NCBI RefSeq assembly: GCF_018502385.1 | Contig: NZ_CP075523.1 | Location: 62,001 to 126,000, forward strand | Length of the DNA: 64,000 nt | DNA from: Synechococcus sp. LA31 | Lineage (GTDB): Bacteria; Cyanobacteriota; Cyanobacteriia; PCC-6307; Cyanobiaceae | Direction of reading: 5' to 3' | Part shown: positions 628-54,810 of the stretch, piece by piece | Layout: every line of letters begins with the position of its first letter | Position numbering within the stretch: the first letter of the stretch is position 1 | The notes under the pieces: generated by a model | Seen by the model: only the letters and a program-made list of their open reading frames with translations | What the model was told of the DNA's origin: nothing | The model's database searches: none | Made by a program: the position numbers and the translations under genes

Positions 628-1344
628 TTACTGGAAAAGAGTATTGAGCAGGTTGCCGAGGGCATTGCCCACAGCGGCATCGCGGTTGCTAGTGGTGTTG
701 CGGTTGGAATTCTCTTGGGTGGCCACCAGCTTGTAGTCACCGAAGCGGAAGATACCGGTGTTGCCGTGGTCGATGAAGGTCACCGGCCAGGTGCCACCAA
801 AACCATCACGAGTCTGGAAGCCCCCACCCACTTGCTGGAAGGTGTAGGTGTTGCCGTTCTGAAGTTGCACCTCGTAGCGGTTCTGGCCGCCCTGGCTCAC
901 CTGCTTGAGTAGGCAGGGGCCGTCGTAGACGCGTTGGCTACCGCGGCTGAGGCTGCAAAGCCCTGTATCTCGGCTCACCTGGGCCTGGCCGGGCCTGGTG
1001 CTGGAGCCGAACAGCTGATTGGTGAGTCCGGCTGCCACGTTGCGTTCACCCCATCCGTCGTTCCAGCAGGTGCGCTTGGCCACGCTGCAGGCCTGGCCAG
1101 TGCTCAGGCGGAAGTCGCGGCTGCTGGTTTGGCTGAGGTTTTTGGAGAGATGGTTGGCGGCCTTCTTGCCGTACACCTCTGAGGTGATCCCGATGGAGGG
1201 CCCGTAGCTGTCGTAGCAGGTTTTGCCAACCGAGTCGCACACCACGCCAGGACGCGGGTAGCTGAGGCTGGCGGGTTGGGCGAGGGCTGCGCTGCTGATC
1301 ACCAAAGGGAGGGCTGCTGCCAGGGTCAGCGTGTGTCGGAGCAT
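628..1344 (-). CDS. YcgJ-family secreted protein
   Basis: A 238-residue protein starting at ATG 1344. Residues 1-20 form a clear signal peptide (hydrophobic core, cleavage after SAALA), so the product is expected in the periplasm or outside. The first half carries the YcgJ-type pattern: P-G-V-V-C-D, a paired C-Y-D, a Y-G-K-K-A-A segment and two further cysteines (residues about 80-100), suggesting disulfides. The second half has a beta-rich sequence with a T-F-I-D-H-G-N-T-G-I motif. YcgJ proteins have no established biochemical role. It lies divergent to another small secreted protein across an intergenic region that holds a 20-bp inverted repeat. The reading frame extends upstream to 1614, but the signal peptide argues for the internal start. 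Confidence 0.65.
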   Translation of the reverse strand: MLRHTLTLAAALPLVISSAALAQPASLSYPRPGVVCDSVGKTCYDSYGPSIGITSEVYGKKAANHLSKNLSQTSSRDFRLSTGQACSVAKRTCWNDGWGERNVAAGLTNQLFGSSTRPGQAQVSRDTGLCSLSRGSQRVYDGPCLLKQVSQGGQNRYEVQLQNGNTYTFQQVGGGFQTRDGFGGTWPVTFIDHGNTGIFRFGDYKLVATQENSNRNTTSNRDAAVGNALGNLLNTLFQ

Positions 1345-1425
1345 GGCGAGCAGATCCTTGAGGTGATTGGCAAACCCTAGTGAGCAAGAGTTTGGTTGTC
1401 TTGTCTCCTGCTGAGTCTTGCGCTG

Positions 1426-1469
1426 ACAATCCTGGTTGGTGTCATCACAATGACGCCAACCAGGATTGT
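1426..1469. repeat. 20-bp inverted repeat in divergent intergenic region
   Basis: Two 20-bp arms (1426-1445 and 1450-1469) match at 19 of 20 positions around a 4-base loop CACA. The single mismatch becomes a G-U pair in RNA, so a transcript would fold into an unbroken 20-bp hairpin. No T-run follows on either strand. It ends three bases before the ATG at 1473 and lies 81 bases upstream of the ATG at 1344. It could be an operator shared by both genes or a 5' UTR structure of the plus-strand gene. Confidence 0.8.
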
Positions 1470-1472
1470 GTG

Positions 1473-1826
1473 ATGGCAGGCGGTAGTAAGCGACGTGATC
1501 GGCTAGCGGCTGGGATTCTCTCCCTTGCCATGGCGACCTGCATGCCGGCGATTGCCAAGGCTGAACCGCAGCAGGCGTTGGCGATCTTGCTGCGTGAGCT
1601 CCATGCCAAGCCACTTGGGCTTTACGACGGGGTGCGTCTGTTTCGCATCAACCAACCTGGCGGCGGCACCCTCACCCTCACGGTGAGCTGCGAGCGCGAA
1701 CAATGGCGTGTGCAAAACAGCGACAGCGCCAAGGGGCAGCCGAGTTTCTACGACACGCCCTTTCTCTCCGCCAAAGGCATCAACCGCACCTGGGTGTGCA
1801 CGGCGCCAGGGAGGGTGTTGGAGTGA
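1473..1826 (+). CDS. Small secreted hypothetical protein
   Basis: A 117-residue protein. Starting at ATG 1473 gives a positively charged N-terminus (G-S-K-R-R-D-R) followed by a hydrophobic stretch and a cleavage-like A-I-A-K-A/E-P site near residue 31, a typical signal peptide. The mature part contains two cysteines (in V-S-C-E-R and W-V-C-T-A) that could pair. I recognise no domain. The frame is open upstream to 1380, but that would translate through the inverted repeat and hide the signal peptide. It converges with the decayed gene to its right, leaving only seven bases between stops. Confidence 0.55.
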   Translation: MAGGSKRRDRLAAGILSLAMATCMPAIAKAEPQQALAILLRELHAKPLGLYDGVRLFRINQPGGGTLTLTVSCEREQWRVQNSDSAKGQPSFYDTPFLSAKGINRTWVCTAPGRVLE

Positions 1827-2489: not shown

Positions 2490-3080
2490 TCAAGGGGCCT
2501 TGCACTGCAGGAGTTGGCCGTTCCAGTTGATCTGCGTGCTGCCCTGGTGCTCCCAGAGCTCCACACCCGCAGCGCTGTAGCGAGCGCCGCTACCCGAAGG
2601 CGCGATCGGAACCACCAGGGTCTCGTTCCCAATCGCGAGAACAACGCTGGGGGGATCTGCTTGGTTCAGGAACACCACCGATACAGGCGCCGTGATTGGG
2701 CCAGAGCACTGAAGCGGTTTGCGCCAGAACACTTGCAAGGTGAACTCCCCTTCTCTGGTGAAGCGGATGCCATCGGCGTTGTCAGCATGTTGGTGGCTGA
2801 TCCCGTGTTGATTGGCCGCGAAACTGAACGTTCCATGTGGCTGCATCGACACTGTTATGTCTCCATCGCGTTCCCTGAACGCACACGGCCCTCGCTGAAT
2901 CGGTAGCGTGTCATCGTGGCGTCTCAGGAGGCAGTAGGCCTCTAGCCCACGCCCCTCGGCCGCCCGATGGCCTTTCATCGCCTGGCCGTAGATGAAGCCG
3001 ATGATGTAGCCCTGGCCCCAGTAAAGGGCGGCTACGGCGGCACCGATGCAGGCTGCCGCCGTGGCCAGTGGTTTTACCAC
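2490..3080 (-). CDS. Membrane-anchored hypothetical protein
   Basis: A 196-residue protein from GTG 3080, whose start overlaps the stop of the upstream gene (3074-3412) by seven bases, suggesting translational coupling. The N-terminal 30 residues are hydrophobic and could be an uncleaved anchor. The remainder contains C-x-L-L-R and G-P-C-A-F cysteines and a beta-rich C-terminal half with W-N-G-Q-L-L-Q-C near the end. An upstream ATG at 3122 is in frame but would extend the overlap to 49 bases. I recognise no family. With its neighbour it appears to form a two-gene operon of exported proteins. Confidence 0.5.
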   Translation of the reverse strand: MVKPLATAAACIGAAVAALYWGQGYIIGFIYGQAMKGHRAAEGRGLEAYCLLRRHDDTLPIQRGPCAFRERDGDITVSMQPHGTFSFAANQHGISHQHADNADGIRFTREGEFTLQVFWRKPLQCSGPITAPVSVVFLNQADPPSVVLAIGNETLVVPIAPSGSGARYSAAGVELWEHQGSTQINWNGQLLQCKAP

Positions 3081-3412
3081 TGCTTGAACTCGTTCACCGT
3101 GCCGTCGTAGTTCACATTGCAATAGCCCTTGGCTGTTTTGCCGTCCACGGCCCAGTTGAAGCTGAGGCCGCTGGCCTTCACGTCTTTCATGGTCATCGCG
3201 CCGGAATCGAGGCTTTGCTTCAGCGTGGCGCCGAGGCTGATCCGCGCTTCAGCCATGCTCACGTCAAATTGCTCCACCACGCGCAATTTGCATGCGTTGC
3301 CTAGACGCTGGCTGACAGCGTCGAGTTTGTTGGCCAGGGCTGGGGCACTGATCACGGTGACTAGTCCGGCCGTTAGGCCAAGGCTGATCAGATGAGGTAG
3401 GGGGCGTGTCAT
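3074..3412 (-). CDS. Small secreted hypothetical protein
   Basis: A 112-residue protein starting at ATG 3412 with a clean signal peptide: T-R-P-L-P followed by a hydrophobic core and a cleavage-like A-P-A-L-A/N-K site around residue 28. The mature part holds two cysteines (in N-A-C-K-L and G-Y-C-N-V). No domain is recognised. It is the first gene of a tight pair with the membrane protein downstream. The frame allows an ATG six codons earlier (3430), which would push the charged residues away from the hydrophobic core. Confidence 0.55.
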   Translation of the reverse strand: MTRPLPHLISLGLTAGLVTVISAPALANKLDAVSQRLGNACKLRVVEQFDVSMAEARISLGATLKQSLDSGAMTMKDVKASGLSFNWAVDGKTAKGYCNVNYDGTVNEFKQW

Positions 3413-3426
3413 GGCGAAGTCGGAGC

Positions 3427-3642
3427 TCACCGCATTCTGAACATTGGAAAACCTTTTTCACCCCATGGATCGAGTCTTGCGAGTTGGGATCTGAGACCAA
3501 GCGGTTGTGGTGTCGTTGTGTTGCTCGCAGTCATCACGGCCAGCGCCAGCTTCCGGTCCGGGTGCAGATGTCGCCAGTGGGACTGCCTGGCCAGGGCCTC
3601 TCGCAGGCTGATTTTGATCAGAGCAAAATGCTCTCGGGTCAT
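3427..3642 (-). CDS. Possible small protein, unrecognised
   Basis: A 71-codon frame sits between the terminator of the psbC fragment and the small secreted protein, ending 14 bases before that gene's start. The sequence is basic, with a plausible amphipathic stretch (E-H-F-A-L-I-K-I-S-L-R-E-A-L-A-R) near its N-terminus. Nothing identifies a function, and it could be a chance open frame in GC-rich DNA. Confidence 0.25.
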   Translation of the reverse strand: MTREHFALIKISLREALARQSHWRHLHPDRKLALAVMTASNTTTPQPLGLRSQLARLDPWGEKGFPMFRMR

Positions 3643-3652
3643 CGGTGCAACC

Positions 3653-3677
3653 AAAAATCCCCGCCTTGCGGCGAGGG
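3653..3677 (-). terminator. Copy of the psbC terminator
   Basis: On the minus strand CCCTCGCC-GCAA-GGCGGGG folds into a stem followed by ATTTTT. It matches the terminator behind the full psbC gene (9495-9523) and lies at the same distance from the stop codon, so it was duplicated with the coding fragment. Confidence 0.7.
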
Positions 3678-3705
3678 TTTGAGGACGAACGAGTGATCGA
3701 GGCGA

Positions 3706-3974
3706 TCAGTCGAGGACGGGCATGGTCAGAGTGGGCTCGGCCTGACGGACGATGCCTTTCTCGAAGCCAGCAGCAGCGACGCGGGCGCGGCCGGCGTGCC
3801 AGAGGTGGCCCACCAGGAAGAAGAAGGCAAGCATGAATTGAGCCGCAGCCAGCCACTGGCGGATGTTCACGAATTTCACCGAGTTGGGCTCGGTGATGAT
3901 GCCGCCCACCGAGTTCAGAGAGGCGTTGGGTGCGTGGGTCATGTCTTCAGCCGCACGGCGCACTTGCCAGGGCT
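3706..3974 (-). pseudogene. Truncated 3' copy of psbC (CP43 C-terminus)
   Basis: The minus strand encodes about 89 residues closely matching the end of the full PsbC in this window, from P-W-Q-V-R-R-A-A-E to L-D at the stop. Shared signatures include [13 protein letters not shown] and [14 protein letters not shown]. Several substitutions exist (Y to D in A-A-E-x-M, N to K in N-S-V-x-F, D-R-K to V-R-Q). Similarity stops abruptly near 3974; upstream DNA does not resemble psbC and no start is usable for a functional antenna protein. Similarity also covers the downstream terminator. The five upstream helices and the Mn-ligand loop of CP43 are absent, so I call it a pseudogene. Confidence 0.85.
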
Positions 3975-4160: not shown

Positions 4161-4409
4161 TCAGTCGAGTGCAAACACGTTGATCCCAGGGGCAACCTCA
4201 CGCATCTCGCGGATCTCCTCGTCGATGGCCGCAAGGATCTCCTGGCTGTAGTCGGGGTGTTGCTTGAGCGTACGCACGATGTTTCGCACGCTGTCCACTG
4301 ACAAACCACCATGCAATACCTGCTGATGAATCTGTTCGCGGAACTGCTGCAGAGCCAGCTCTTCTTGTGGTGATAGGGGGCGCTTTGGCGCGGGATGGTT
4401 GATCTCCAT
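4161..4409 (-). CDS. Small acidic hypothetical protein
   Basis: An 82-residue protein from ATG 4409 (an ATG 14 codons upstream at 4451 is also in frame). The sequence is predicted largely helical, with alternating charged segments such as L-S-P-Q-E-E-L-A-L-Q-Q-F-R and I-D-E-E-I-R-E-M-R-E. No signal peptide or known motif is seen. The neighbouring genes are a psbC fragment and an ATPase, which gives no functional hint. Codon use looks normal for a coding gene. Confidence 0.5.
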   Translation of the reverse strand: MEINHPAPKRPLSPQEELALQQFREQIHQQVLHGGLSVDSVRNIVRTLKQHPDYSQEILAAIDEEIREMREVAPGINVFALD

Positions 4410-4716
4410 GTTCTCGCGAGCAGACCTCGCTTGAACCGTAGAGAGGTTCAAGTGATCTTCAAGGTTTCAGGGCCTTGGGTTTACGAAACAAACCATGCTG
4501 GAGCGGTAGGGGCGTGGCTTGCGCGGGGCGCCGCGCCGTGGCATCAGCGCAGCCGCTGAAGCACTGCCGTGCCAGCAGCGCCACGTCCTGAAGGAGCAGC
4601 GGCACCGGTGTCTTAACCGAAGCCGTCAAGCCAAAGTGGCGATGTTGGTAGCAGCGTTTGCGTGGGTCCAAGCTCCAGGCTTCCCTATCCAAGAGGTTGC
4701 GCTGCGCATTAAGCAC
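4410..4716. other. About 300 bases without a convincing gene
   Basis: Between the small acidic protein and the AAA ATPase only overlapping short frames of fewer than 90 codons are open on both strands, with no signal peptide, domain or start context to favour either. No clear terminator or repeat was seen. Confidence 0.4.
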
Positions 4717-5838
4717 TCACACCTTGTTTGATTCCGGCCAGCGCCAGCTGCCTCGCTCCAGCGTTGTTTGTGCTTGCACCTGGGTGGCCCCCAGCTCTCG
4801 TTCGAGTTGGAGATGCCGGCATTGGGGCTGTTGGGCCAGGGCGTTGATCAGCGCTGGGGCATGGGCGATCACCCACACCTGCGTGCGCTCGGCCGCTGCG
4901 TGAATCAATCGGGCTAAAGGGGCCAAGAGCTCTGGGTGCAGGCTGCTTTCCGGTTCGTTCAAGACCAACAGAGGCGGTAGCCGCGGGCTGAAGAGCGCCA
5001 CGGTGAGGAGGAGATAACGAAGTGTTCCATCGGAAAGTTCCGCTGCCTCCAGCGGCCGCAGTAGCCCTGGCTGATGCACATGCAGGCGAAACGATCCGCC
5101 ATCGGTTTGAACACTGAGATGACAGCCCGGGAAGGCATCATCCATCGCCTGTTGCAGACCGTTGCCATCCCCGTTTTCAAGAATTGTCTGCACAGCGGCT
5201 GGTAGATCACCACCATCGCCGCTGAGGGCAAAGCAACGGGTGCCCACCCGCGGCTGTCTGGCTGGCGCCTCAGGATCGGTGCGGAAGCTGTCGTAGAAGC
5301 GCCAACTGAGTATCTGCTCACGTAGCAGCATCACCTCCGGTTGTTGATCAGGATCAAAGCCGCGTTGAAACAGTGATTGATCGGGATGGTGTTGAGGCCC
5401 TGAGCTGCTGAGCACCGCCCTGGGGTGGAATCCCTCGCCCGCCCAGATCCATTCCCCTTTGAGCTGGGGATCAAGGGCAAAGGCGCTCTGTCGTTCCTGT
5501 GGGTAACCCAGTTCCACGGCATAGGAGAAGGGCTCGGCCGCAAACCCCAGCCGCAGCCGCACCGCCTGTTGGCGCGGACCTCCTTGAACGGGCTGCTCGC
5601 CTTGGCGCATCGCCCGGCTGAGGCGCTCCGGTCCAGCCCACATCACGGCTGGCAGGCCTCCCTCCTGGGCCAACGCTCCCACCATCGTTCCTCGAGCTGC
5701 GGCTGTGAGCAATCGCAGGGCCCGGTAGAGGTTCGATTTGCCACTGCCGTTGGCGCCGGTGACCAGCGTGAGCTGGCCGAAGGGCACGACCACGTTCTGC
5801 AGAGAGCGATAGCCGCTCACGGCGAGACGGTGAATCAT
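4717..5838 (-). CDS. AAA ATPase of the RecF/OLD-like type
   Basis: A 373-residue predicted ATPase. The N-terminus has the I-x-G-Y-R-S-L layout typical of SMC/RecF-type AAA_21 proteins, followed by Walker A G-A-N-G-S-G-K-S at residues 28-35. Near the C-terminus lies a Walker B-like L-L-V-L-N-E-P-E-S-S-L-H-P (about residues 295-307), with E-P-E replacing the more usual D-E-P, then V-W-V-I-A-H-A-P as the H-loop. The central 150 residues fit a coiled or lid insertion. Such stand-alone ATPases are often linked to DNA processing or phage defence when paired with a nuclease. No TOPRIM or nuclease gene sits beside this one, so the role is open. Confidence 0.75.
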   Translation of the reverse strand: MIHRLAVSGYRSLQNVVVPFGQLTLVTGANGSGKSNLYRALRLLTAAARGTMVGALAQEGGLPAVMWAGPERLSRAMRQGEQPVQGGPRQQAVRLRLGFAAEPFSYAVELGYPQERQSAFALDPQLKGEWIWAGEGFHPRAVLSSSGPQHHPDQSLFQRGFDPDQQPEVMLLREQILSWRFYDSFRTDPEAPARQPRVGTRCFALSGDGGDLPAAVQTILENGDGNGLQQAMDDAFPGCHLSVQTDGGSFRLHVHQPGLLRPLEAAELSDGTLRYLLLTVALFSPRLPPLLVLNEPESSLHPELLAPLARLIHAAAERTQVWVIAHAPALINALAQQPQCRHLQLERELGATQVQAQTTLERGSWRWPESNKV

Positions 5839-6058: not shown

Positions 6059-9000
6059 TCACCAGCGCAGCTTGAGCCCCCCGCCATAGCTGAGCTCGTT
6101 GCCATTGCTCCAGAAGGCACCACCCACGCCGGCATAGAGGGAGAGGGCTTCAGACGTTTCGTATTCCAGCGAGAGGCCCACATCAAGCGCATTAGCCCCG
6201 CGGTTCTGACCGAGCACATCAACAGAGCCGAGGGCCGGCACGTTTGCGAAGGAAGCGGTGAGCTGGTGCTCCTCGTTGGAATCACCGTTGAAGTCGTACT
6301 CGTAGCCGAGGGAGAGGCGCGGGATCAGGCGTGATGTTTTGCCAGTGACGATTGGCGTCTCGATCTGGAAGCCGATGCCGTAGATGAGGGAATCGGCGGT
6401 GTGTGAGTTGAGGGCCAGGTTGAGGGAGTCAGCGCCGGTTTCCGAGAACGCTCCTTGGTTGTGGAGGGCGTAGGAGAAGAAGGTGTTGGGCTTGATGCGC
6501 ACAGCGGAGCGGCTGGTTTTATCGGAGGAGAGCACCCAGTCGTATTCGGCTGCCAGAGCTGCTGTGAAACCATTGCCGCTCCAGTTGGCATTGGCGGTGC
6601 GGTTGAGCCCCCCGAAGTTGATGTTGCGGTCTGATTCGTACTGGAGGTTCATGTAACCGGCCAGCGCCGTGAACTTCCAGCTCTCGGATGGGCGATAGAT
6701 GCCCCATGCAGCACCGGAGTAGGTGGAGGATTCGATGCGAACGTCGGCGTATTCGTAGTTGTAGAGATTGGCACGCCCGTAGCCAAAGGCAGCACCAGCA
6801 CTCCAGTTGCGATTGAAGTCGTACTGGAGGCCGTAGGAGCTGGAGAAGATGTTGTAGTCGAGGGAAGCGAGATCGTTGGTGCCGTTGAGGGTGGCTTGGG
6901 TGTTGGTGCCATCGATCAGCAACGACCAGGGCGTGAGCCTTTGAACGGTGCGCGGCTTGCAATCGGGCTGGAGCTGCTGGGCGCCATCGGCACGGGGCTC
7001 GACGTTGCCATCAACAGTGCAGACCTCTTCTTCTGCAATGAAGGGAATGGCCTTGGTGCCAGAGGTGAGGGCGAGTGTGTTGGCACGAAACTGCTCCATC
7101 GCTTCCAGGGCCACTGATTGCATGGAGGCGTAGGGCTCAGCGGAGATGGAGTGGAGGGCTTGGTTGAGCTGTTGCCGGGTGGGAACAGCAAACAGCGCAG
7201 CGATCACATTGGCGAAGTCAGGCGTGACGAGCGCTGCACTGGTTTGATTGGTGGTGTAGCCGGTTGTGCCGATTGCCTTGCCACCCGTTACACCAGATGT
7301 GACAGCTGCACTGACAGAAGCCCAGCCTGCATCGAGTGCCTTGGCAGTAGCCACTGTGTTGTTGTTGTTGCCAGAAGCCCCTGTGCCAGGCTTGTTCTGC
7401 TGCTGACAAGCCGATGCAGAACCACCGTTGCTGGTGCAGGTGTTGGTGTTGGAGTTGGGATTGCCGGATGAAGCTGTTGTAATTGCCCCACCAGTCTTAT
7501 TGACGTTGGCAATGGTTTCCTTTCCGGGCAGCTTGGTGGTATTCGGATTTAGTGGTTGACCGGTTGTGGGATCATTCTTTACCCAGGCGAATTGCAGCTT
7601 CGTGCAATTCTTTTGAATATTGGGATCCGAGCTGGTGCAGGTGGCGTAGTAGTTGGGATCGATTTTGCCAAAGAGTTTGTCTGTTTCGCGCGCGAAGGTG
7701 AAACCAGATGAGCCAATAACATTAAGACTGGTTGTCAGGCCAATTCCCTCTCCAGTTGAATCGGCACCGGTAACGTCAATAGCGGTATAGATCTTGTTGG
7801 CAGAGATGGGTGCACCTTGATAGGAGCTGATGTTCAGCTTGCCTCCCAGGAGTGCAACACGGTTAGGGCCTGTGATCTTCAGCAGGTCAGAGTCTGATCC
7901 GTTGACATCGATATTGAGGCTGGCGCTGGGATTTGTTATGCCCTGGAGGTAGTTGCCATCCACGGTGAGCGTGCCGATGTCATCGTTGCCCGGGGATACA
8001 TTGCCTTCATTGATGACATCTCCAAAAATAGTTCCTGTACCCTGTAGTGTCCCCCCAGTTTCTACCGTGGTCTCTGATGTGATGGATCCGATGATTGCGA
8101 GTCTCCCACCTCTAATGATTGTTGCTCCTGTATATGTATTTGTTCCGCTGAGAGCCTGAAGGTTGCTGCCAGTTTTGATGATTTTGCCTTTCCCTGAGGA
8201 GTCTATGATCGAGCCTGTAAATACTGCCGGGCTCGATGATGCGCTGCCAAGGGATAGACTATTGCCTTCTAGGTTCACGGTAGCGGTCCCGTGGGTCGAC
8301 CTTAGTGAGGCAATTGTTTCGTCGCCGCCTAGGATGGCTAGCTTGCTGTCGGGAGAAAAAAGGTATACATCTGAGGAGTCGGGTATGGCACCATAGCGGC
8401 TCACTAAAGTACTATCTCCGTCGATAATGGTGATTCCTGTATAGGTATTTCTGCCGCTAATCTCGATGTAGTTGCCGTTCGGTCTGAAGGTGATGTTTCC
8501 TGATGCGCCTGACGCGTCGCTAAAAATACCTGAAAACTTAACGGGAAATCCTTTGTTGTTGATGGCATTGTCGGTTGAGCTGCTTAACGTAAAATCTTGG
8601 TTATATGTCTGATTGTCTTGGTCGACAGTAAGCGTTCCTCCTTCGAACTGGGGCAGTAATCTGCCTGAAGACAGGTTGCTACTTACATTGTTATTGGTGC
8701 CATTAATGTTTCCCGCTGGATTGATCGGAGCAGTCGTCGGTGTAGGTGGAGCGGGATTAGGCACCGGTGATCCAAATGCCCATGGGAAAACGTTGCTATT
8801 GGATGTAAATGCTGCAAAACCATCGGAACTGCATTGGGATTTGTCTAGAGATGAGCAAACACCGTATACAGTGGTTTGACCTGCTTTGTAGGCGAAGTTT
8901 ACAATCTCTGTATCTCCGTATTGCGCACTCCAGCTATCCCTAAAGTCTTTGGCGAGCCACTCATCTCCCCACCAGGGAGAGTTTTCGTATCTTGGATCCT

Positions 9001-9181
9001 GTTGTGCAGTATTCCAGGGTTGCTTGTTAGGCCCGTAGCCAACTGTGTAGGTTTTGTTGTTGACGGTTATTATATTGGGGTTCGCTGATGCGGCTTGTGG
9101 GTTGCCTAGGTAGCAGAGCGCCAATGGCACAAGGGTTGTGCCCATGAGTGAGTGCAGTGAGACTCTTATGGCGTTGCTCAA
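6059..9181 (-). CDS. Autotransporter with beta-barrel domain (type V secretion)
   Basis: A 1040-residue protein with a signal peptide (hydrophobic core, A-A-S-A near residue 34). The passenger contains repeats of the autotransporter-associated beta-strand type, such as I-S-G-R-N-T-Y-T-G-I-T-I-I-D-G and A-L-S-G-T-N-T-Y-T-G-A-T-I-I-R-G, and a G-G-T-L-Q-G-T-G-T-I block, all indicating a parallel beta-helix. A low-complexity N/G/T/S region (about residues 560-630) carries paired cysteines. The last 280 residues alternate Y/F/W strands in the manner of an outer-membrane autotransporter barrel and end in G-L-K-L-R-W, the aromatic terminus recognised by the Bam machinery. No separate partner is nearby. 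The passenger half appears lower in GC than the barrel half, suggesting acquisition or recombination. Confidence 0.85.
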   Translation of the reverse strand: MSNAIRVSLHSLMGTTLVPLALCYLGNPQAASANPNIITVNNKTYTVGYGPNKQPWNTAQQDPRYENSPWWGDEWLAKDFRDSWSAQYGDTEIVNFAYKAGQTTVYGVCSSLDKSQCSSDGFAAFTSNSNVFPWAFGSPVPNPAPPTPTTAPINPAGNINGTNNNVSSNLSSGRLLPQFEGGTLTVDQDNQTYNQDFTLSSSTDNAINNKGFPVKFSGIFSDASGASGNITFRPNGNYIEISGRNTYTGITIIDGDSTLVSRYGAIPDSSDVYLFSPDSKLAILGGDETIASLRSTHGTATVNLEGNSLSLGSASSSPAVFTGSIIDSSGKGKIIKTGSNLQALSGTNTYTGATIIRGGRLAIIGSITSETTVETGGTLQGTGTIFGDVINEGNVSPGNDDIGTLTVDGNYLQGITNPSASLNIDVNGSDSDLLKITGPNRVALLGGKLNISSYQGAPISANKIYTAIDVTGADSTGEGIGLTTSLNVIGSSGFTFARETDKLFGKIDPNYYATCTSSDPNIQKNCTKLQFAWVKNDPTTGQPLNPNTTKLPGKETIANVNKTGGAITTASSGNPNSNTNTCTSNGGSASACQQQNKPGTGASGNNNNTVATAKALDAGWASVSAAVTSGVTGGKAIGTTGYTTNQTSAALVTPDFANVIAALFAVPTRQQLNQALHSISAEPYASMQSVALEAMEQFRANTLALTSGTKAIPFIAEEEVCTVDGNVEPRADGAQQLQPDCKPRTVQRLTPWSLLIDGTNTQATLNGTNDLASLDYNIFSSSYGLQYDFNRNWSAGAAFGYGRANLYNYEYADVRIESSTYSGAAWGIYRPSESWKFTALAGYMNLQYESDRNINFGGLNRTANANWSGNGFTAALAAEYDWVLSSDKTSRSAVRIKPNTFFSYALHNQGAFSETGADSLNLALNSHTADSLIYGIGFQIETPIVTGKTSRLIPRLSLGYEYDFNGDSNEEHQLTASFANVPALGSVDVLGQNRGANALDVGLSLEYETSEALSLYAGVGGAFWSNGNELSYGGGLKLRW

Positions 9182-9494
9182 GACTTGATCTTTTTGAATT
9201 TTTCTATTTTATTCTGTGACAGACTGCCTGTCATTATTTCTTTGGCACTTCAAGAACTGGCTCTTTTTCGGGGCTAAGGGTCAGCAGGATTTGGGGGTTG
9301 CGGCCTGCAGGAATGCACTGGAGCCCACGCTTTTATGAAATCTCCGCAGAAGATCGGAATCCGACACTAGCGAGTAGACGCTGTGTCCATCACCTCGGCT
9401 TGCACGTGTTCTCTCTCGCCTTTTCTGATTGTTTCTGGTGAGTACTGTTTCGGATTCTTTCTTCGCTACAGCTTGATAACTACCCAATTCCAGA
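9182..9494. other. Intergenic region upstream of the autotransporter
   Basis: About 310 bases, AT-richer than the surroundings, presumably holding the promoter of the minus-strand autotransporter. A 68-codon minus-strand frame here is low in plausibility. I see no repeat or RNA gene. Confidence 0.4.
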
Positions 9495-9523
9495 TAAAAA
9501 AGCCCCCGCCTTGCGGCGAGGGC
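9495..9523 (-). terminator. Rho-independent terminator of psbDC
   Basis: On the minus strand, CCCTCGCCGC-AA-GGCGGGGG is followed by CTTTTTTATC, a strong GC stem plus T-run 25 bases beyond the psbC stop. A diverged copy sits at 3653-3677. Confidence 0.85.
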
Positions 9524-9547
9524 TGAGGGTCGTTCGCTGATCTGAGA

Positions 9548-10936
9548 TCAGTCGAGGTCGGGCATGGCCAGAGTGGGCTCGGCCTTGCGGTCGATGCCTT
9601 TCTCGAAGCCAGCAGCAGCAGCGCGGGCGCGGCCGGCGTGCCACAGGTGACCCACCAGGAAGAAGAAGGCGAGCACGAACTGAGTCGCAGCTAGCCACTG
9701 GCGGATGTTTACGAAGTTCACCGAGTTGGGCTCGGTGATGATGCCGCCCACCGAGTTGATGGAGGCGTTGGGGGCGTGGGTCATGTATTCAGCCGCTCGG
9801 CGCACTTGCCAGGGCTGAATGTCGTTCTGGAGCTTGTCGAGGCTCAGGCCGTTGGGGCCGCGCAGGGGCTCCAGCCAGGGACCACGGAAGTCCCAGAAGC
9901 GCATGGTTTCACCACCAAAGATGATCTCGCCCGTAGGGGAGCGCATCAGGTACTTACCCAGACCGGTGGGGCCCATGGCTGAACCGATATTGGCGCCAAG
10001 GCGCTGGTCACGCACCAGGAAGGTGAAGCTCTGAGCCTGGGAGGCTTCGGCGTTGGTGGGGCCGTAGAACTCCGAGGGGTAGGCGGTGTTGTTGAACCAG
10101 ATGTAAGCCGAGGCGATGAAGCTCATGAAGCTCAAGGCGCCCAGGCTGTAGCTCAGGTAGGCCTCACCGTTCCAGATGAAGGCGCGGCGCACCCAGCCGA
10201 AGGGCTTGGTGATCACGTGCCAGATGCCACCGAAAATGCAGGTGAGTCCAAGCCAGATGTGGCCACCGATGATGTCTTCCATCGAGTTCACACCGATGAT
10301 CCAGCCCTCGCCGCCGAAGGGGGCGCGGAACAGATAACCGAAGATCACACCAGGATCAAGGGTGGGGTTGGTGATCAGGCGCACGTCGCCGCCACCAGGA
10401 GCCCAGGTGTCGTAGACGCCACCGAAGAACATGGCCTTGAACACCAGCAGCAGGCAGCCCACACCCAGAAGGATGAGGTGGTAGCCAATGATGTTGGTCA
10501 TCTGGTTTTTATCGCGCCAATCCTGCGAGAAGAAGGCGGAATAGTTTTCCAGAATTTCGGGTCCACGCAGTGCGTGGTACAGACCGCCGAGGCCGAGCAC
10601 GGCGGAGCTGATCAGGTGCAGCACACCCACCACGAAGAAGGGGTAGAGGTCAACAACCTCACCACCTGGGCCCACGCCATAGCCAAGGGTGGCCACGTGG
10701 GGGAACAGGATCAGGCCCTGCTCATACATCGGCTTATCGAAGGTGAAGTGGCTCACCTCGAACAGCATCATTGCGCCAGCCCAGAACACCATCAAACCGG
10801 CGTGGGCGACGTGGGCTCCCAGCAGGCGACCCGACAGGTTGATCAGACGAGCATTCCCCGACCACCAGGCATAGCCCGTGGAGTCGAGGTCCTTCCCGCC
10901 GATCCCGGAGAGAGAAGGATTAGAGAGCGTTACCAC
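9548..10936 (-). CDS. psbC: Photosystem II CP43 chlorophyll protein
   Basis: A 462-residue inner antenna protein of photosystem II in the thylakoid membrane. It carries six transmembrane segments and the large lumenal loop with G-G-E-T-M-R-F-W-D, whose Glu and Arg contact the Mn4CaO5 cluster in known structures. Histidine-rich helices (A-H-V-A-H-A-G, Y-H-L-I-L) supply chlorophyll ligands. I chose the GTG at 10936, giving V-T-L-S-N-P, because this is the conserved psbC start and gives a 17-base overlap with the end of psbD. The longer open frame to 11014 lies inside psbD. It is co-transcribed with psbD and ends at a strong terminator. Confidence 0.97.
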
Positions 10937-11975
10937 GGGGCAGAACCTCTTCAGGGAAGACGAAGTTTTCGTGCGGCTGGTCAGCCGGTGCCATCCAGGC
11001 ACGCAGACCTTCATTCAGAAGAATGTTCTTCGTGTAGAAGGTCTCGAATTCAGGATCCTCAGCAGCGCGGATTTCCTGCGACACGAAGTCGTAGGCACGC
11101 AGGTTGAGGGCCAGTCCGATGATGCCGATGCTGCTGGTCCACAGACCCATCACCGGCACAAACAGCATGAAGAAGTGCAGCCAACGCTTGTTGGAGAACG
11201 CGATCCCGAAGATCTGGCTCCAGAAGCGGTTGGCGGTGACCATCGAATAGGTCTCTTCTTCCTGGGTGGGCTCAAACGCCTTGAAGGTGTTGGCCTGCTC
11301 ACCGTCTTCAAACAGGGTGTTCTCCACCGTGGCGCCGTGGATGGCACACAGCAGAGCGCCACCGAGGATGCCGGCCACGCCCATCATGTGGAAGGGGTTC
11401 AGCGTCCAGTTGTGGAAGCCCTGCAGGAAGAGCAGGAAGCGGAAGATGGCGGCCACGCCAAAGCTGGGTGCAAAGAACCAGCTGCTCTGGCCGAGGGGGT
11501 ACATCAGGAAAACACTGACGAACACCGCAATCGGGCCGGAGAAGGCGATGGCGTTGTAAGGGCGGATGCCCACCAGGCGGGCGATCTCGAACTGACGCAG
11601 CATGAAGCCGATCAGGGAGAAGGCGCCGTGCAGGGCCACGAAGGTCCACAGACCGCCGAGCTGGCACCAGCGCACGAAGTCGCCCTGGGCTTCAGGGCCC
11701 CAGAGCAAGAGAAGGGAATGGCCCATGGCATCAGCCGGGCTGCTCACCGCAGCGGTGAGGAAGTTGCAGCCCTCCAAATAGGAGCTGGCAATGCCGTGGG
11801 TGTACCAGGAGGTGACAAAGGTGGTGCCGGTCAGCCAGCCACCCAGCGCCAGGTAGGCGGTGGGGAACAGGAGCAGACCCGACCACCCGACAAAAACGAA
11901 GCGGTCGCGCTTGAGCCAGTCATCGAGGACGTCAAACCATCCCCGCTGCGGCGCGCGCCCTACAGCGATCGTCAT
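10920..11975 (-). CDS. psbD: Photosystem II D2 reaction-centre protein
   Basis: A 351-residue protein, the standard D2 length, starting [10 protein letters not shown] at ATG 11975 and ending [10 protein letters not shown]2 pairs with D1 to bind P680, pheophytin, QA and the non-haem iron. Conserved segments visible include R-F-V-F-V-G-W-S-G, the [14 protein letters not shown] region, and [15 protein letters not shown], which contains an iron-ligand histidine. The frame extends 29 codons upstream without a recognisable extension, so the family start is preferred. It is first in the psbD-psbC operon and divergent from ycf4. Most picocyanobacteria also hold a second psbD elsewhere, which cannot be checked here. 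Confidence 0.98.
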
Positions 11976-34503: not shown

Positions 34504-35622
34504 TCAGCGCCGCTCTGCCATCGGCTTGAAGATGTCCTCAAGAAAATCAAAAACCACGGCAATCACTGGCTTTTCATGCAGCACAACTCGGGCGGTAACG
34601 CCCATACCAGATCTCAGAGACTCCGCCGGGTAATGCTCGGGAATACCGCTTTTGTTAATGCGGATGCGGGCGATGTAGGCCTGTGCCTGCCCCTTGCTGT
34701 CCAACGCAGATGTGGTGGGAGATAGCGATTCCACGACACCTCGAAGGGTGCCGTGCTCATTGGCCGGGAAGGCATCCACGGTGATCTCCGCTTTTTTGCC
34801 CTGGCGGATGGGTGCCGCCAATTTTGATGACACCTGCACCGAGGCAATCAGGCCATCACTGGGCACCACTTTCGCGAGTACTTCACCTTGGTCTACCCGT
34901 TGACCGGTCACCTGAATCGCCAGTTGCTGCAGCGATCCTCCAATGGGTGATACCACATCAAATTGTGCAGAGCGCTCGCGCAATTCGCGGAGTTGCATGC
35001 TCAGATCGTTAATCTCGATCCTGCGCTGCAGATCCAACTTGGCTTTCTCTTCCAGCAGGGCCTCACGCTCGGCTTTGCTCTGAAAAAGCTCGTTTTCCTT
35101 ATCGAGTAATTGCACCTCCTGAGCGGAACCTTGCTGCACCAGGTTGCGCAGCCTGGCCACCAGGCCGGTGTTCAGCTGGATACGTGCCTTGGCCTGACTG
35201 AGGCGGATGGCAAAGGCGAGGTCATCGCGTTGGCCCTTTTGCTTGAGGAGTTCAAGCTTGAGGGGAATGCTCTCCAGTCGTGGCTGAAGATCAGCACGGC
35301 TGAGGGTGAATAGAACCTGGCCCCGTTTCACCATTTGGTGTTGCACGGCATTCACCCGCTCCACAACGGCTGCATCGGGACTTTTGATGCTGGCCTCCGC
35401 ACGGATCGTCTCGAGCTGTCCAGGCAGATTGCTGGTTTCTTCAATGCGGCTGAGGCATGACCAGCTGAGCAAAGCCAGAGAACCCAGGCCCAGGGACCAG
35501 ATCAGAGTGCGGCTCCAGCGCGGGGGAGGTGTGAGCAACATCTGGTGACTTGCTGTTGCCTCGTTGGCTTGCTGAAGCTTGTCTTTGGTCAGCTGTCTTA
35601 AATCGGATAAGAGTGATTTCAT
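34504..35622 (-). CDS. Type I secretion periplasmic adaptor (HlyD family)
   Basis: A 372-residue membrane fusion protein. A short cytosolic N-terminus precedes one transmembrane helix (about residues 40-57). A lipoyl/barrel-sandwich domain follows (I-K-S-P-D-A-A-V-V-E-R-V), then a coiled-coil hairpin of about 100 residues (A-K-A-R-I-Q-L through L-R-E-L-R-E-R) and a return lipoyl segment V-V-S-P-I-G-G-S-L-Q. It joins the ABC exporter to an outer-membrane TolC-like channel, which is not in the window. It starts immediately after the ABC exporter stop, so the two are one operon. Confidence 0.9.
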   Translation of the reverse strand: MKSLLSDLRQLTKDKLQQANEATASHQMLLTPPPRWSRTLIWSLGLGSLALLSWSCLSRIEETSNLPGQLETIRAEASIKSPDAAVVERVNAVQHQMVKRGQVLFTLSRADLQPRLESIPLKLELLKQKGQRDDLAFAIRLSQAKARIQLNTGLVARLRNLVQQGSAQEVQLLDKENELFQSKAEREALLEEKAKLDLQRRIEINDLSMQLRELRERSAQFDVVSPIGGSLQQLAIQVTGQRVDQGEVLAKVVPSDGLIASVQVSSKLAAPIRQGKKAEITVDAFPANEHGTLRGVVESLSPTTSALDSKGQAQAYIARIRINKSGIPEHYPAESLRSGMGVTARVVLHEKPVIAVVFDFLEDIFKPMAERR

Positions 35623-38526
35623 TTAGCCTCCAAACTGTTGTTGGTAGAGGGCGTAGTAGCGACCTGATTGGGCCATTAACTCGTCATGACTTCCTACGGA
35701 GTCGATTCGGCTGTTGTGCATCAGGACAATCTGATCGGCGTGAATCAAGGTGGAGAGTCGGTGGGTGATCATCAGTAAGGTTCGGCCTTTGGCATGGCTC
35801 CGAAGGTTCCTCACGACCTGCTGTTCTGTATCCACATCCAGGGCACTGGTGGCTTCATCCAGAATCATCAGATTGGGGTTTTGCAGCAGCATCCGCGCCA
35901 GGGCAATCCGCTGCCGTTGTCCGCCGGATAGGCCTGCTCCCTTCTCCCCTACCGGTGTGCTGTAGCCATAGGGAAGGCCCATGATGAAATCGTGGGCACA
36001 GGCCAGGCGCGCCGCTTCTACCACCTGATCCGTTGCGGCTTCCGGATCGGCTACGGCGATGTTGGAGTAGATGGAGCCTTCGAACAGCAGGCAGTCCTGA
36101 GGAATAAAGCCCAGCTGCCTGCGTAGGGAATAAAGCTCCACCTTGCTCACATCCAGGTCATCAATCAGCACCTTCCCCCGACTCGGTTCATACAGCCTGG
36201 GAATCAACTTGAGCAGGGTGCTCTTGCCACAGCCGCTCTGCCCTACCAGGCCGGTGAAGCTGCCCTTGGGGATCGTCAAGCTCACCCCCGATAGCTGTGC
36301 GGAACTGGTGGCCCCGTAGCTGAAGCTCACCTGATCAAAGCGAATCGTGCCTTCGATCGGGGGCATGCTGATGTTGGTGTCTTCGATGTCCTCGGTTTCC
36401 AGCGGTTGGTTCACCACATCCCCAAGTCGTTCCACGGCTAGAGAGACCTCCTGGAAGTTCTGCCAGGTGCCGGCCAGGCGCAGGATCGGTTGGGTCACAT
36501 AGCCGCTGATGATTCGGAACGCGATCAAACCGCCCAGTGTCAGCTGGTTATCCAGCACCAGCCATGCCCCCACCGTGATCACCAAAATGTTGCTGCTTTT
36601 ATTGATTAGTTGTAGGGCGTTGGAGCTGGCCGTATTGGCTAGAACCGACCGAAATCCCTTGTTGATGCCATCGAGGTGCCTGTCTTCCCAGTTCCGCCTT
36701 GTGCTCAGCTCACTGTTCTGCACCTTCACGGTCTGGATGCCGTTCAGCACTTCCACCATGTAGGACTGGGTTCTTGAGTACGCCTCAGCGCGCTGCCGGA
36801 TCAGGCGCTGGGTGATCGGTGTCAGGCCAAGGATCACCAGTAGCAGTAGTGGAATGCTGCCAAGGATGATGCCGGCAAGAATCGGCGAGTAGAAAAACAT
36901 CACGCCGAAGTAGAGCATCGCAAACAGCGCATCAAGCACCACCGTGAGTGCTGTGCCGGTGAGGAAGCTGCGGATCTTGTCGAGTTCATTGAGCCGGCTG
37001 GCCAGCTCGCCCACAGGATGCTTTTCGAAATAACGAATATTCAGTCTCAGTAGGCGAGAGATGATTGCTGAGCCCAGGCTGATATCCACCCTGTTGGAGA
37101 TCTCCATGAACTGGAAGGTGCGCAGATTGCCGAAGATCAGTTCCAGAACCATCAGTAACACCATCACAACAGCAAAGCCGCCGAGGGCATTTACCGAACC
37201 CTGGCCGATCACGCGGTCGATGATCTGTTGAAACAGCAGTGGTGTCGCCAGAGCAAACAATTGCGCCAGAAAGCTGGAGATGAATACCTCCACCAATCCC
37301 ACCTTGTAGCGGCTCAGGAAGGGCAGCACCCAACTCAGGCCAAAGCGCTGCTGTGGCGTATGCCGGCCCGCGCTGATGGTTACAGCCGTCAGATCCAACC
37401 CGTACTGCTGGCTCAGGGCATCACTGTTGAGGCGCTTAATCTTGGTGCTTGGGTTAAGAATCAACAGGCCTGATCCATTGGCTTCAACAATCAGGCTTGG
37501 ATTTCCCTGGGGATCAAGGATCACCGCAGGCGTGGGAATGCGGCTGGCATCGCCAGCGCGAAACGCCACGATGCGCCCGGCCAGCCCGAATTGATCCACA
37601 ACACTCACCAGCTTTTCAAGGCTGAGGTTCTGTTCGCTGGCGGCGAGAAAATGACCGGCTTTGCGCAGATTGTCTCGCCGCATCGGCAGCCCATAGAACT
37701 GGGCCAGCATTGTGAGGACAGCGGTATGGCACTCTGCCGCGGTGCCTCCTCCCACGGGGCGAAACCCTAGTTGTCGGACCTGCTGGGTCAGGCTGGGTAG
37801 ATGTTCATCTAGTGCTCCGGTCTGGAGCGGCCTGCTGGCCGGGGCCTCTCTTCGATCAAGCGGTTGTGGCTTGATGGCGTGTCGGGAGTGCTGTTTGGTG
37901 AGTTGTTCAGCATCGCTCCAGATCAGCACGCGCGGATTGTCGTCACCCAGGAAGCAGCGCAGCGCTTCCGCGGTGATCAGTTGTCCGTAATGAAACCCTT
38001 TCTTGGAGCGATCGGCATAGATCAATGGTCCTTTCAGATGGCTTTCGGGTGGAGGATTTCCTGTTGGTAGCAGCTGCCAGCGCCGCAGATAGATCTCAGG
38101 AGTTTGCTGATCCGCAGGTACGTTGATCCCGTAGCCCTGGATGTATTTCTGGATGAGCGGTAGTTCACTCGGGGATAGGCCGCTGCGTAAATGATCTAGA
38201 ACTGCTTCCTCCAGTTTTGGATCCAAGGGCAGCGTGCCGAGCACGATGGCTTCGCAGTCTGTGGAGGCCATCAGCTCTTCCCCCAGGTCGCTATTCAGCA
38301 GGGTCAGGGCACCGCAGAGATAGGGACTCTCCGGTCGCAGCACGGTGTGGCTGCCGAACCAGCGATCGGGATCCAGCAGCCGGCAATGCCCTTCCACCAC
38401 CAGCAGCACTTCGGGACTTGAGCCACTGGTCTGCAAGACCGATCCTGCGGGGAATCGGCGTTGGTCACAACCCAGTTGTTGTGCTAGAGCGCGCAAGGCA
38501 TCTGCATTCGCCGTTGTGAGTTGCAT
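35623..38526 (-). CDS. Type I secretion ABC exporter with N-terminal regulatory and degenerate C39 domains
   Basis: A 967-residue exporter. The first 150 residues resemble a cyclic-nucleotide-binding fold (F-P-A-G-S-V-L-Q-T-S-G then V-V-E-G-H-C-R-L-L-D). Next comes a C39-like region (about 265-400). The cysteine survives in A-E-C-H-T-A-V-L-T-M, but the preceding glutamine and the later histidine appear lost, so proteolysis is unlikely. Six transmembrane helices follow (about 405-690). The nucleotide-binding domain has Walker A G-Q-S-G-C-G-K-S-T, signature L-S-G-G-Q-R-Q-R and Walker B L-M-I-L-D-E-A-T-S-A-L-D. A degenerate C39 is typical of RTX exporters, fitting the giant RTX protein in this cluster. 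GTG 38529 precedes ATG 38526. Confidence 0.93.
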   Translation of the reverse strand: MQLTTANADALRALAQQLGCDQRRFPAGSVLQTSGSSPEVLLVVEGHCRLLDPDRWFGSHTVLRPESPYLCGALTLLNSDLGEELMASTDCEAIVLGTLPLDPKLEEAVLDHLRSGLSPSELPLIQKYIQGYGINVPADQQTPEIYLRRWQLLPTGNPPPESHLKGPLIYADRSKKGFHYGQLITAEALRCFLGDDNPRVLIWSDAEQLTKQHSRHAIKPQPLDRREAPASRPLQTGALDEHLPSLTQQVRQLGFRPVGGGTAAECHTAVLTMLAQFYGLPMRRDNLRKAGHFLAASEQNLSLEKLVSVVDQFGLAGRIVAFRAGDASRIPTPAVILDPQGNPSLIVEANGSGLLILNPSTKIKRLNSDALSQQYGLDLTAVTISAGRHTPQQRFGLSWVLPFLSRYKVGLVEVFISSFLAQLFALATPLLFQQIIDRVIGQGSVNALGGFAVVMVLLMVLELIFGNLRTFQFMEISNRVDISLGSAIISRLLRLNIRYFEKHPVGELASRLNELDKIRSFLTGTALTVVLDALFAMLYFGVMFFYSPILAGIILGSIPLLLLVILGLTPITQRLIRQRAEAYSRTQSYMVEVLNGIQTVKVQNSELSTRRNWEDRHLDGINKGFRSVLANTASSNALQLINKSSNILVITVGAWLVLDNQLTLGGLIAFRIISGYVTQPILRLAGTWQNFQEVSLAVERLGDVVNQPLETEDIEDTNISMPPIEGTIRFDQVSFSYGATSSAQLSGVSLTIPKGSFTGLVGQSGCGKSTLLKLIPRLYEPSRGKVLIDDLDVSKVELYSLRRQLGFIPQDCLLFEGSIYSNIAVADPEAATDQVVEAARLACAHDFIMGLPYGYSTPVGEKGAGLSGGQRQRIALARMLLQNPNLMILDEATSALDVDTEQQVVRNLRSHAKGRTLLMITHRLSTLIHADQIVLMHNSRIDSVGSHDELMAQSGRYYALYQQQFGG

Positions 38527-39346
38527 CACGGAATTGACCCTGCAACCAGCTCGAGAGCTGTTGCAGTTCGGTCTTGAGATCGCCGCAGATCCTCGACTTG
38601 AAATTCATTTCCTCGAGAAAGTTTTGCGTATGTGCGTCGTATACGCTGTCGAACCGGTACTCCAAGCGCAGCAGCGTGTGCCACTCAGCGGCTTCAAACG
38701 GGCCGATCAACTGGCCGGCCTGAGCCGTGCGCAACCGGCCGGCGATCTCCGGATGGGGGGTGGTCAAGTCGACAGGGCCGACAATGCCCTGGGTTTTTGC
38801 TTCCGGTCCCCGTGAATGGAGACGTGCCGCTTCACCGAAGCTGATCTCGCCGGCTTCAATGGCATAGAACAGTTCGCGGCAGAGACCCGGATCATCCACG
38901 CGAATCAAGCTGTATAGCACCCTGTCCAGATTATCCTTGTAGCGTAGGTAAAGTGATTCGATATTGCTGCTGGATTGCTCGCGCAGTTCTGTGCGGCGCC
39001 AGTCATGAATGGCTTCTGACAAGAGGTCGGCCTGGCTCATGCCGTGCTTCAGGCACCATTGTTGCCGCTCTTGCTCGTTGCTGAGCCCATGTTTGCTGCA
39101 ATATTCTTTCATGGCAGGCTCGGCAACCTGATTGGGATCGGACAGGTTGTTGTGTTCAAAGACCACGGCTCGTTCTTTCAGTTGCCTTAGGAAAGGTTCC
39201 ACTAAACCGAAGCGAAATAGCAGTGCAATCAGCTCTAGATTGCTGGCATCCTGAAGCGCTGTGAAAACTGATTCAGCTCCCTGATTCGACTGTTCTGTTG
39301 TGCTGGTGATTGCAGTGGGTGTAGCAGTAGTCATGGCAGTGCTCAT
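38465..39346 (-). CDS. Parvulin-like peptidyl-prolyl isomerase linked to type I secretion
   Basis: A 293-residue protein. The C-terminal half has the parvulin pattern: S-F-G-E-A-A-R-L-H-S-R-G-P-E-A, then G-I-V-G-P-V-D-L-T-T-P-H-P-E-I-A and G-Q-L-I-G-P-F-E-A-A-E-W-H-T-L-L-R. The helical N-terminal half resembles SurA-type chaperone segments. There is no signal peptide, so it probably acts in the cytoplasm before export. It overlaps the ABC exporter gene by 62 bases, longer than usual, which suggests coupled expression. Such isomerases are often encoded beside cyanobacterial peptide or RTX exporters. Confidence 0.75.
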   Translation of the reverse strand: MSTAMTTATPTAITSTTEQSNQGAESVFTALQDASNLELIALLFRFGLVEPFLRQLKERAVVFEHNNLSDPNQVAEPAMKEYCSKHGLSNEQERQQWCLKHGMSQADLLSEAIHDWRRTELREQSSSNIESLYLRYKDNLDRVLYSLIRVDDPGLCRELFYAIEAGEISFGEAARLHSRGPEAKTQGIVGPVDLTTPHPEIAGRLRTAQAGQLIGPFEAAEWHTLLRLEYRFDSVYDAHTQNFLEEMNFKSRICGDLKTELQQLSSWLQGQFRDATHNGECRCLARSSTTTGL

Positions 39347-39375
39347 GGCGATGGCATTCGTTGTGCTTGATGTGT

Positions 39376-44088: not shown

Positions 44089-44354
44089 ACACCAACCAAG
44101 ACCTCAGCCATGGTGATCAGCCGGTTTGTGAATGGCCTGGCTCAGGCATTGGAACGTCGCTTTTGGGACAAGCCTGCGTTTTGTGCTGCCTGAGTGCGCA
44201 GGTTTGTCCGATTTACGCGGTTCTGGCGTTCTGCCCCAGAAGGTCGCTGATCAGCTCGTCATGGTTATGGAGGTCATAGCTGGAAAGGCCTCAGGTTTCG
44301 TAGGCCTCCCTTGGCTATGTCACTTCCTCCTGTGCACTTCCTCGGACACAGTTC
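44089..44354. promoter_or_regulatory. Divergent promoter region of the scaffold and peroxidase genes
   Basis: A 266-base gap lies between two oppositely transcribed giant genes, so promoters for both should be here. No clear boxes, operator repeat or Shine-Dalgarno sequence before ATG 44355 were found by eye. Shared control is inferred from arrangement. Confidence 0.45.
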
Positions 44355-53766: not shown

Positions 53767-54810
53767 TGTTCAGTCTCAGCAGGTTGGTCAGCTGACAAGA
53801 AGGTGTGAGGCCGCTACGGGTTGAGGTGCGACCCAGCAACCCAGACCTCACGCCCCATGCATAGCCATCCCAATGCCCGACTGACACAGAAGAGCCGTCT
53901 CAGGCTCGTCAATCAACACCTCCAAGACCGTCGTCCCCTCGCTGAACTGGCTGCAGAAGCAGGCATCAGTCTCCGCTGCGCCTACAAGTGGCTGGCCCGC
54001 TACCGCTCAGGTGGTGCTGCTTCTCTGGCTGATCGACGGAGTGTTCGCCGCACCCAGCGGCGGACGCTCGATCCGCGGCAACTGCAGCAGGCCGTGGATC
54101 TCCGTCACCAACGCCTCCACCTCCGCCACATCGCCAGGCTTCTGGTCGCACCCTTCTCCACCGTGGCCAGGGTGCTCAACCGCCTTGGTCTGGGGCGGTT
54201 GCGGAATCTCGAGCCCAAACCTCCAGTCCAGCGCTACGAGCGGGAGCATCCCGGAGAGCTGATCCATATCGACGTCAAAAAGCTCGCCCGCTTTCGCAAA
54301 GTCGGTCACCGCATCACTGGCAACCGCCAGCAGGGCCGCTCCACGGGCGTTGGCTACGACCGCGTCCACGTCGCCATTGATGACGCCACACGGCTTGCTT
54401 ATGTCGAGGTGCTCGCGGACGAGCAGCAGGCCACGGCCATTGGCTTTATGAGCCGAGCTGTGGCTTGGTTCAACAGTCAGGGCGTCGAGTGCCGGCAGGT
54501 CATGTCTGACAACGGTCCCGCCTACGTCTCACGCAGCTTTGCCAAGGCGTGCAAGGTCCTGGGCCTCAGGCACATCCGCACCAGGCCCTACACGCCGAGG
54601 ACCAACGGCAAAGCCGAACGGTTCATCCAGACCCTGTGCCGGGAATGGGCCTACGGGATGCCGTTCCAGAACTCAGAAGAACGCAATCAGTGGCTGCCTC
54701 GCTACCTGTCGATCTATAACCGTCTCAGGAAGCACACAGCACTCGGCGGCCGATCACCTCAGCAGCGGCTCAACGAGCTGCTCTGCTGATCAACGTGGTG
54801 AGACACAACA
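53767..54810 (+). mobile_element. IS481-family insertion sequence, complete
   Basis: A 1044-bp element with imperfect terminal inverted repeats of about 28 bases: the left end TGTTCAGTCTCAGCAGGTTG pairs with the reverse complement of the right end, TGTTGTGTCTCACCACGTTG. It begins TGT and ends ACA, is flanked by GCTAGG duplications, and contains one intact transposase. It lies between the giant peroxidase gene and polA and disrupts neither. Intact ends and duplication suggest recent movement. Confidence 0.85.
53857..54789 (+). CDS. IS481-family transposase
   Basis: A 310-residue transposase starting at ATG 53857 (an earlier in-frame TTG at 53821 is less likely). The N-terminal helix-turn-helix has A-G-I-S-L-R-C-A-Y-K-W-L. 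The DDE catalytic residues are in L-I-H-I-D-V-K-K-L, V-M-S-D-N-G-P-A-Y and N-G-K-A-E-R-F-I-Q-T. The protein appears full length and undamaged, so the element could be active. Confidence 0.93.
   Translation: MHSHPNARLTQKSRLRLVNQHLQDRRPLAELAAEAGISLRCAYKWLARYRSGGAASLADRRSVRRTQRRTLDPRQLQQAVDLRHQRLHLRHIARLLVAPFSTVARVLNRLGLGRLRNLEPKPPVQRYEREHPGELIHIDVKKLARFRKVGHRITGNRQQGRSTGVGYDRVHVAIDDATRLAYVEVLADEQQATAIGFMSRAVAWFNSQGVECRQVMSDNGPAYVSRSFAKACKVLGLRHIRTRPYTPRTNGKAERFIQTLCREWAYGMPFQNSEERNQWLPRYLSIYNRLRKHTALGGRSPQQRLNELLC

Follow-up and report, generated by a model that had tools for sequence, protein, structure and literature searches.

An autotransporter gene lying next to the photosystem gene psbC in Synechococcus sp. 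LA31 bears on the ways in which picocyanobacteria diversify their cell surface, a trait that may determine which cells fall to grazers or to infection. We analysed a 64,000-nt stretch of this genome (contig NZ_CP075523.1, positions 62,001 to 126,000; hereafter the window) together with related genomes, and the features of the locus are collected in Table 1. An initial annotation of the same DNA had overlooked a relic of the psbC 3' end, the exchange of the locus between genera and the mosaic nature of the passenger.

Table 1. Features at the psbC end of the slot, with positions in the window
Feature	Position	Strand	Remarks
YcgJ-like protein, slot cargo	628..1614	-	PF05666, 86.1 bits
MliC-domain protein, slot cargo	2490..3122	-	PF09864, 50.6 bits
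118-aa probably exported protein, behind relic	3074..3430	-	98% identical in G009; no family
Second psbC terminator copy, behind relic	3653..3677	-	Direct repeat D8; most like G265 and G193 (another genus)
Decaying psbC 3' relic	3704..3974	-	271 nt, 92% to intact copy (direct repeat D1); TIGR01153, 130.8 bits on 85-aa ORF
96-aa ORF between AAA gene and relic	4161..4451	-	No family above cut-off
AAA ATPase, cargo	4717..5838	-	PF13304, 91.5 bits; PADLOC HEC-01A, 145.2 bits
Type Va autotransporter	6059..9181	-	Passenger ~residues 34-670, barrel region ~671-1040; PF03797 and PF12951 above cut-off; mosaic identities
psbC terminator and intergenic DNA	9182..9547	.	~88-100% to G205 (other genus) per 60-column bin; one bin of 78% further into gene start
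psbC (CP43), intact, left anchor	9548..11014	-	TIGR01153, 918.8 bits; last ~36 nt hold the breakpoint relative to G205

The autotransporter, its distribution and its mosaic passenger

The gene is an intact ORF with a TTG start, and its translation of 1040 aa begins with a putative Sec signal peptide (about residues 1-33, judged by eye). The initial annotation had described a type Va autotransporter with a beta-helical passenger and a complete barrel ending in an aromatic residue, and the two HMM searches that it had proposed, with PF03797 and PF12951, both gave scores above cut-off. The Pfam Autotransporter family PF03797 matched residues 758-1019 with 131.8 bits (cut-off 26), covering profile positions 5-254 of 255, and the terminal W1040 was invariant across the 10 aligned homologues. 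For the passenger, PF12951 (PATR) matched residues 335-363 with 29.3 bits, barely above the cut-off of 27; the NCBIfam autotransporter repeat TIGR02601 gave 30.5 bits; and a profile of 7 homologues matched the Serratia autotransporter of solved structure 8e7f at profile positions 339-455 (E 5.4e-18). An AlphaFold model, run on 7 sequences, had a mean pLDDT of 48.3, with about 65-92 in the passenger (~250-470) and mostly <50 in the barrel, which was unreliable, so that our statements on the barrel rest on the other evidence. Among PDB folds it came closest to 7jvi, a beta-helix, and to 8e7f, the autotransporter Ssp, the modelled passenger resembling beta-helices. A Pfam search found no protease or other enzymatic domain in the 1040-aa protein and no family in residues 34-165 (window ~8690-9080); relatives have in common a loose pattern in this stretch, with G..Y near residue 50 and W.G near residue 75. 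Judged from its sequence, the protein is a classical type Va autotransporter, with a barrel anchoring a beta-helical passenger and a predicted location at the cell surface. It is probably an adhesin or a surface-coat protein; that it serves adhesion or grazing resistance, as had been proposed, is a guess.

The class had also been called uncommon in this lineage, which holds as far as patchiness is concerned but not as rarity. PF03797 was present in 9 of 25 genomes of the genus, not a broad distribution, and in 109 of 400 genomes of the family, including 79 of 251 high-quality ones. With the window protein as query, homologues were found in 7/25 genus genomes and 16/121 genomes of the family sample; the window gene is the sole PF03797 match of its own 2.75-Mb genome. 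The distribution is patchy, neither rare nor simply vertical. Carriage of the autotransporter by phages was rejected, as 50,697 phage records gave no match and no viral-contig candidate was confirmed by tblastn.

Comparison with individual relatives showed the protein to be a mosaic. Residues 1-670 were 22-53% identical to the homologue in genome G115 and residues 671-1040 were 90-99% identical, whereas in comparison with G181 the identities were 58-76% for residues 366-670 and 52-75% for the barrel. Since the nearest relatives differ, G115 for the barrel and G181 for residues 366-670, the passenger and the barrel have different histories. Passengers are the exposed part of autotransporters, and exposed parts often evolve fast, so that point mutation under diversifying selection, instead of exchange, might explain the varying passenger. 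However, the DNA match to G115, of 92% identity, runs from the stop codon to position 7182 and stops there, blastn finding nothing past that point, and the order of relatedness of residues 366-670, nearer to G181 than to G115, is reversed in the barrel; we therefore give this explanation hardly any credence.

The slot between psbC and cobQ

We found that the autotransporter is the first cargo behind psbC, starting 366 bp downstream of the psbC end, in a slot limited by psbC at one side and by maf and cobQ at the other. For a survey of the slot, stretches of 26 other genomes were taken; its length was measurable in 21 genomes including our own, maf or psbC lying outside the stretch elsewhere, and the psbC-maf distance in these 21 ranged from 374 to 28,881 bp, the LA31 slot being the longest. 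Linkage between psbC and the barrel was followed by searching psbC in 74 of the 109 barrel-bearing genomes, the rest, mostly fragmented assemblies, being dropped, and only pairs on the same contig can be judged. Among the matches listed, the barrel lay 2.6-5.9 kb behind psbC on the same strand in 8 of the 30 genomes compared, representing four genera, and about 30 kb or more from psbC in the remaining 22; this count omitted G167, G175, G197 and G198, in which the two are on one contig but more than 100 kb apart. No PF00589 integrase was present inside the slots examined, the matches of 19 genomes all being outside them. Transposase-like ORFs, judged by eye, were seen in and beside the autotransporter in the slot of G205.

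The other cargo has relatives of varied location. The lone AAA gene, which together with the 96-aa ORF and the autotransporter made up the scope of the PADLOC scan, is 92% identical at the nucleotide level in G265, where it also lies behind an autotransporter, and 89% identical in G193 (another genus), where it occurs without one; with flanks upstream of psbDC in both genomes that show only about 70% identity to the window, the gene is a second case of sharing across genera. Relatives of the 118-aa protein were found in 14 of 201 genomes; an autotransporter is close by in G165, G258, G281 and the window. A specific tie between the two was rejected in favour of a loose association, given that in G198 and G132 the relative lies behind cobQ with no autotransporter match within the stretch taken.

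Other surface genes were noted nearby. Near its maf end, and beyond the limits of the window, the LA31 slot also contains a YadA-like trimeric autotransporter of 2399 aa (L128:4082-11278, minus strand; genome position ~46-53 kb), which matched PF05658 with 406.5 bits and PF03895 with 33.3 bits; sulfotransferase-like proteins adjoin it. Window positions 34504-53618, which lie in a stretch of lower G+C, encode an HlyD-like protein, an ABC exporter and two large proteins, one of 1570 aa that is Ig/cadherin-like and one of 3087 aa that has animal-haem-peroxidase domains and RTX repeats; they make up a second surface-protein island, with probable type I secretion. An IS481-type transposase (53821-54789) adjoins the 3087-aa peroxidase gene.

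Probable exchange with another genus, and psbC 3' relics

Much of the island is 95-100% identical between LA31 and G205, a genome of another genus, whereas the flanks are 64-89% identical. Upstream of psbDC the identity to the window was 72.6%, and in psbDC itself 84-94%. Up to 58 nt before the stop codon (-58), psbC of G205 resembles that of its congeners, apart from a single window-like site at position -223. The difference from the window that is closest to the stop is at -36; downstream of it, across most of the intergenic DNA, G205 is almost the same as the window and departs from its congeners. Beyond the terminator, this intergenic DNA is also unlike that of G115. Further identity was seen in the barrel together with the AAA gene (97.9%) and in a block running from window position 1466, within the YcgJ-like gene, through the window start to 1479 bp beyond it (99.3%). 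At the far end, 93-100% identity extended through maf and about 150 nt of cobQ and then fell to 75-89%, G205 being congener-like again. For this one pair, one breakpoint thus falls within the final ~36 nt of psbC and the other about 150 nt inside cobQ. A passenger stretch is only 72% identical, and the two islands differ internally by gains and losses. A double crossover in the core genes at the two flanks would produce such a pattern, and the transfer was likely from this genus to G205, because G205 resembles LA31 and G115 in maf and at the start of cobQ. The slot of G205 also has an apparent second, internally deleted autotransporter (L129:3684-4585, 573.7-574.6 kb), which starts like a passenger and closes with 49 bp from the 3' end of the barrel.

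The same order and strand of psbC and autotransporter in four genera could be taken as an ancestral arrangement, inherited vertically with many losses, the psbC relic being a simple local duplication. For the G205 pair, this is contradicted by the high identity to another genus, with sharp edges in a far more divergent background. In addition, the DNA behind psbC is near-identical to that of G205 but unlike that of the G205 congeners and G115, and the passenger is closer to another genus while the barrel is closer to G115; vertical inheritance is therefore highly unlikely.

Displaced psbC 3' ends were found behind the autotransporter in the window, in G181, in G265 and at a moved copy in G009, the psbC pieces of the last three being shorter than the 271 bp of the window. 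In the window, the autotransporter, the AAA gene and the 96-aa ORF separate the intact psbC from the relic, which we consider to be decaying because it has 9-10 amino acid changes in 85 relative to other psbC, as compared with 1-3 in the intact copy. The coding part of the relic has its closest match within the own genus (G200, 92.5%), whereas its terminator is most like another genus. In G181, a psbC 3' piece lies within ~20 bp behind the autotransporter stop, and the 294 bp from the last psbC codons onward are 88.8% identical to the native psbC end and downstream DNA of its congener G204, showing that the native end was displaced; the intact psbC carries another terminator. The relic of G265 is weaker, consisting of a psbC-type terminator only, within ~15 bp behind the autotransporter stop. 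In G009, at a site away from psbC, a 162-bp piece 99.4% identical to the 3' end of the window autotransporter joins the last ~60 nt of psbC, followed by sequence 94% identical to window 2523-3767. The genomes also have, at other places, widespread matches of ~96 bp to the 5' end of psbC; these were rejected as relics, since we take them to come from a second copy of psbD, whose 3' end overlaps psbC. G009 (L096, L097) was also found to have three autotransporter genes with 3' parts 97-98% identical, two near psbC and the third inverted and ~195 kb away, which an inversion between copies would explain.

Many islands insert at the 3' ends of tRNA or other genes, and the relics might likewise be displaced half-sites of a site-specific element attaching at the psbC 3' end, with the intact psbC carrying the 3' end brought by the element. 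The restored psbC with its older 3' end and native downstream DNA displaced, clearest in G181, agrees with such an element, as does the G205 breakpoint within the last ~36 nt of psbC; in addition, a broken ORF upstream of the moved copy in G009 (L097:7370-7909) looks, by eye only, like a recombinase. However, this ORF matched no Pfam or PHROGs family at 0.01, and the other end of the G205 block is in cobQ. Furthermore, the relics begin at about codon 399 in the window, at codon 431 in G181, at about codon 470 in G009 and behind the stop in G265. Four different starting points, even though later trimming is possible, argue against a fixed attachment core, and together with the absence of PF00589 matches from the slots examined they make an integrase-driven element less likely. 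We set integrase-driven insertion aside on these grounds, and a site-specific element in general we regard as unlikely, although the G205 breakpoint is close to the psbC stop.

Proposed flank recombination and comparison with known systems

The data may be better explained by an adhesin-type autotransporter at a hotspot diversified mainly by homologous recombination between conserved flanks, with occasional illegitimate joints, a reading that we consider reasonably probable. Incoming DNA that has psbC at one end and, at the other, either cobQ or the conserved barrel would replace the intervening DNA, so that whole islands could move between genera by recombination in the flanks and passengers could be swapped onto resident barrels, the barrel possibly acting as an inner anchor. 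Some right-side joints would be illegitimate, inside or just behind the 3' end of the recipient psbC, and would leave psbC 3' relics behind the new cargo. The DNA may arrive, for example, by natural transformation; comEC and dprA were present in all six genomes looked at, but they are also present in E. coli and thus have little bearing on competence.

Several observations stand against recombination between conserved flanks as the main process. Island-wide exchange is seen in one genome pair only, and its left breakpoint falls within the final ~36 nt of psbC, despite the 2.5 kb of psbDC over which it could have occurred. This preference for the psbC end, seen in the breakpoint and in the relic with its terminator of another genus and coding part of the own genus, is unlike what plain homologous recombination predicts. 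The window-like site at -223 of G205 lies inside the congener-like part, the window relic does not adjoin the autotransporter, and that of G265 is a terminator only. More tentatively, psbC, which ranks with the most conserved picocyanobacterial DNA, and the autotransporter barrel may be the homology anchors of a cassette-like exchange of surface genes across genera, covering both passengers and whole adhesin islands, with joints perhaps favoured at the psbC 3' end, an idea that we put at somewhat less than even chances.

On these data, a photosystem gene marks a site at which adhesin-type genes appear to have been exchanged between genera, and psbC 3' relics and sharp breakpoints make such exchange countable, so that the locus is a concrete place to seek surface variation in populations and metagenomes. 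Among the papers listed on cyanobacterial autotransporters, psbC and genomic islands, and illegitimate recombination, including PMC8507841 and PMC4793230, no title or opening of an abstract described this locus.

The protein resembles type Va autotransporters (PF03797) such as Serratia Ssp (8e7f) in its C-terminal barrel, final aromatic residue and beta-helical PATR passenger, but differs from them in having no detected enzymatic domain and an N-terminal stretch outside any Pfam family. Integrative elements at the 3' ends of genes are similar in that the target is restored and the older 3' end is displaced behind the cargo, whereas the slot described here has neither a PF00589 integrase nor a fixed core. 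On the features tested, the psbC-maf-cobQ locus fits the hotspot system described in the excerpted text of PMC5635113, in that the cargo varies while the core genes around it are fixed, an integrase is absent and the recombination tract ends in both flanks. Compared with the system as given in that excerpt, the tract here crosses genera and not strains of one species, joints within one of the flanks, probably illegitimate on one side, have left a record in the psbC 3' relics, and the cargo gene may itself supply an inner anchor in its conserved barrel.
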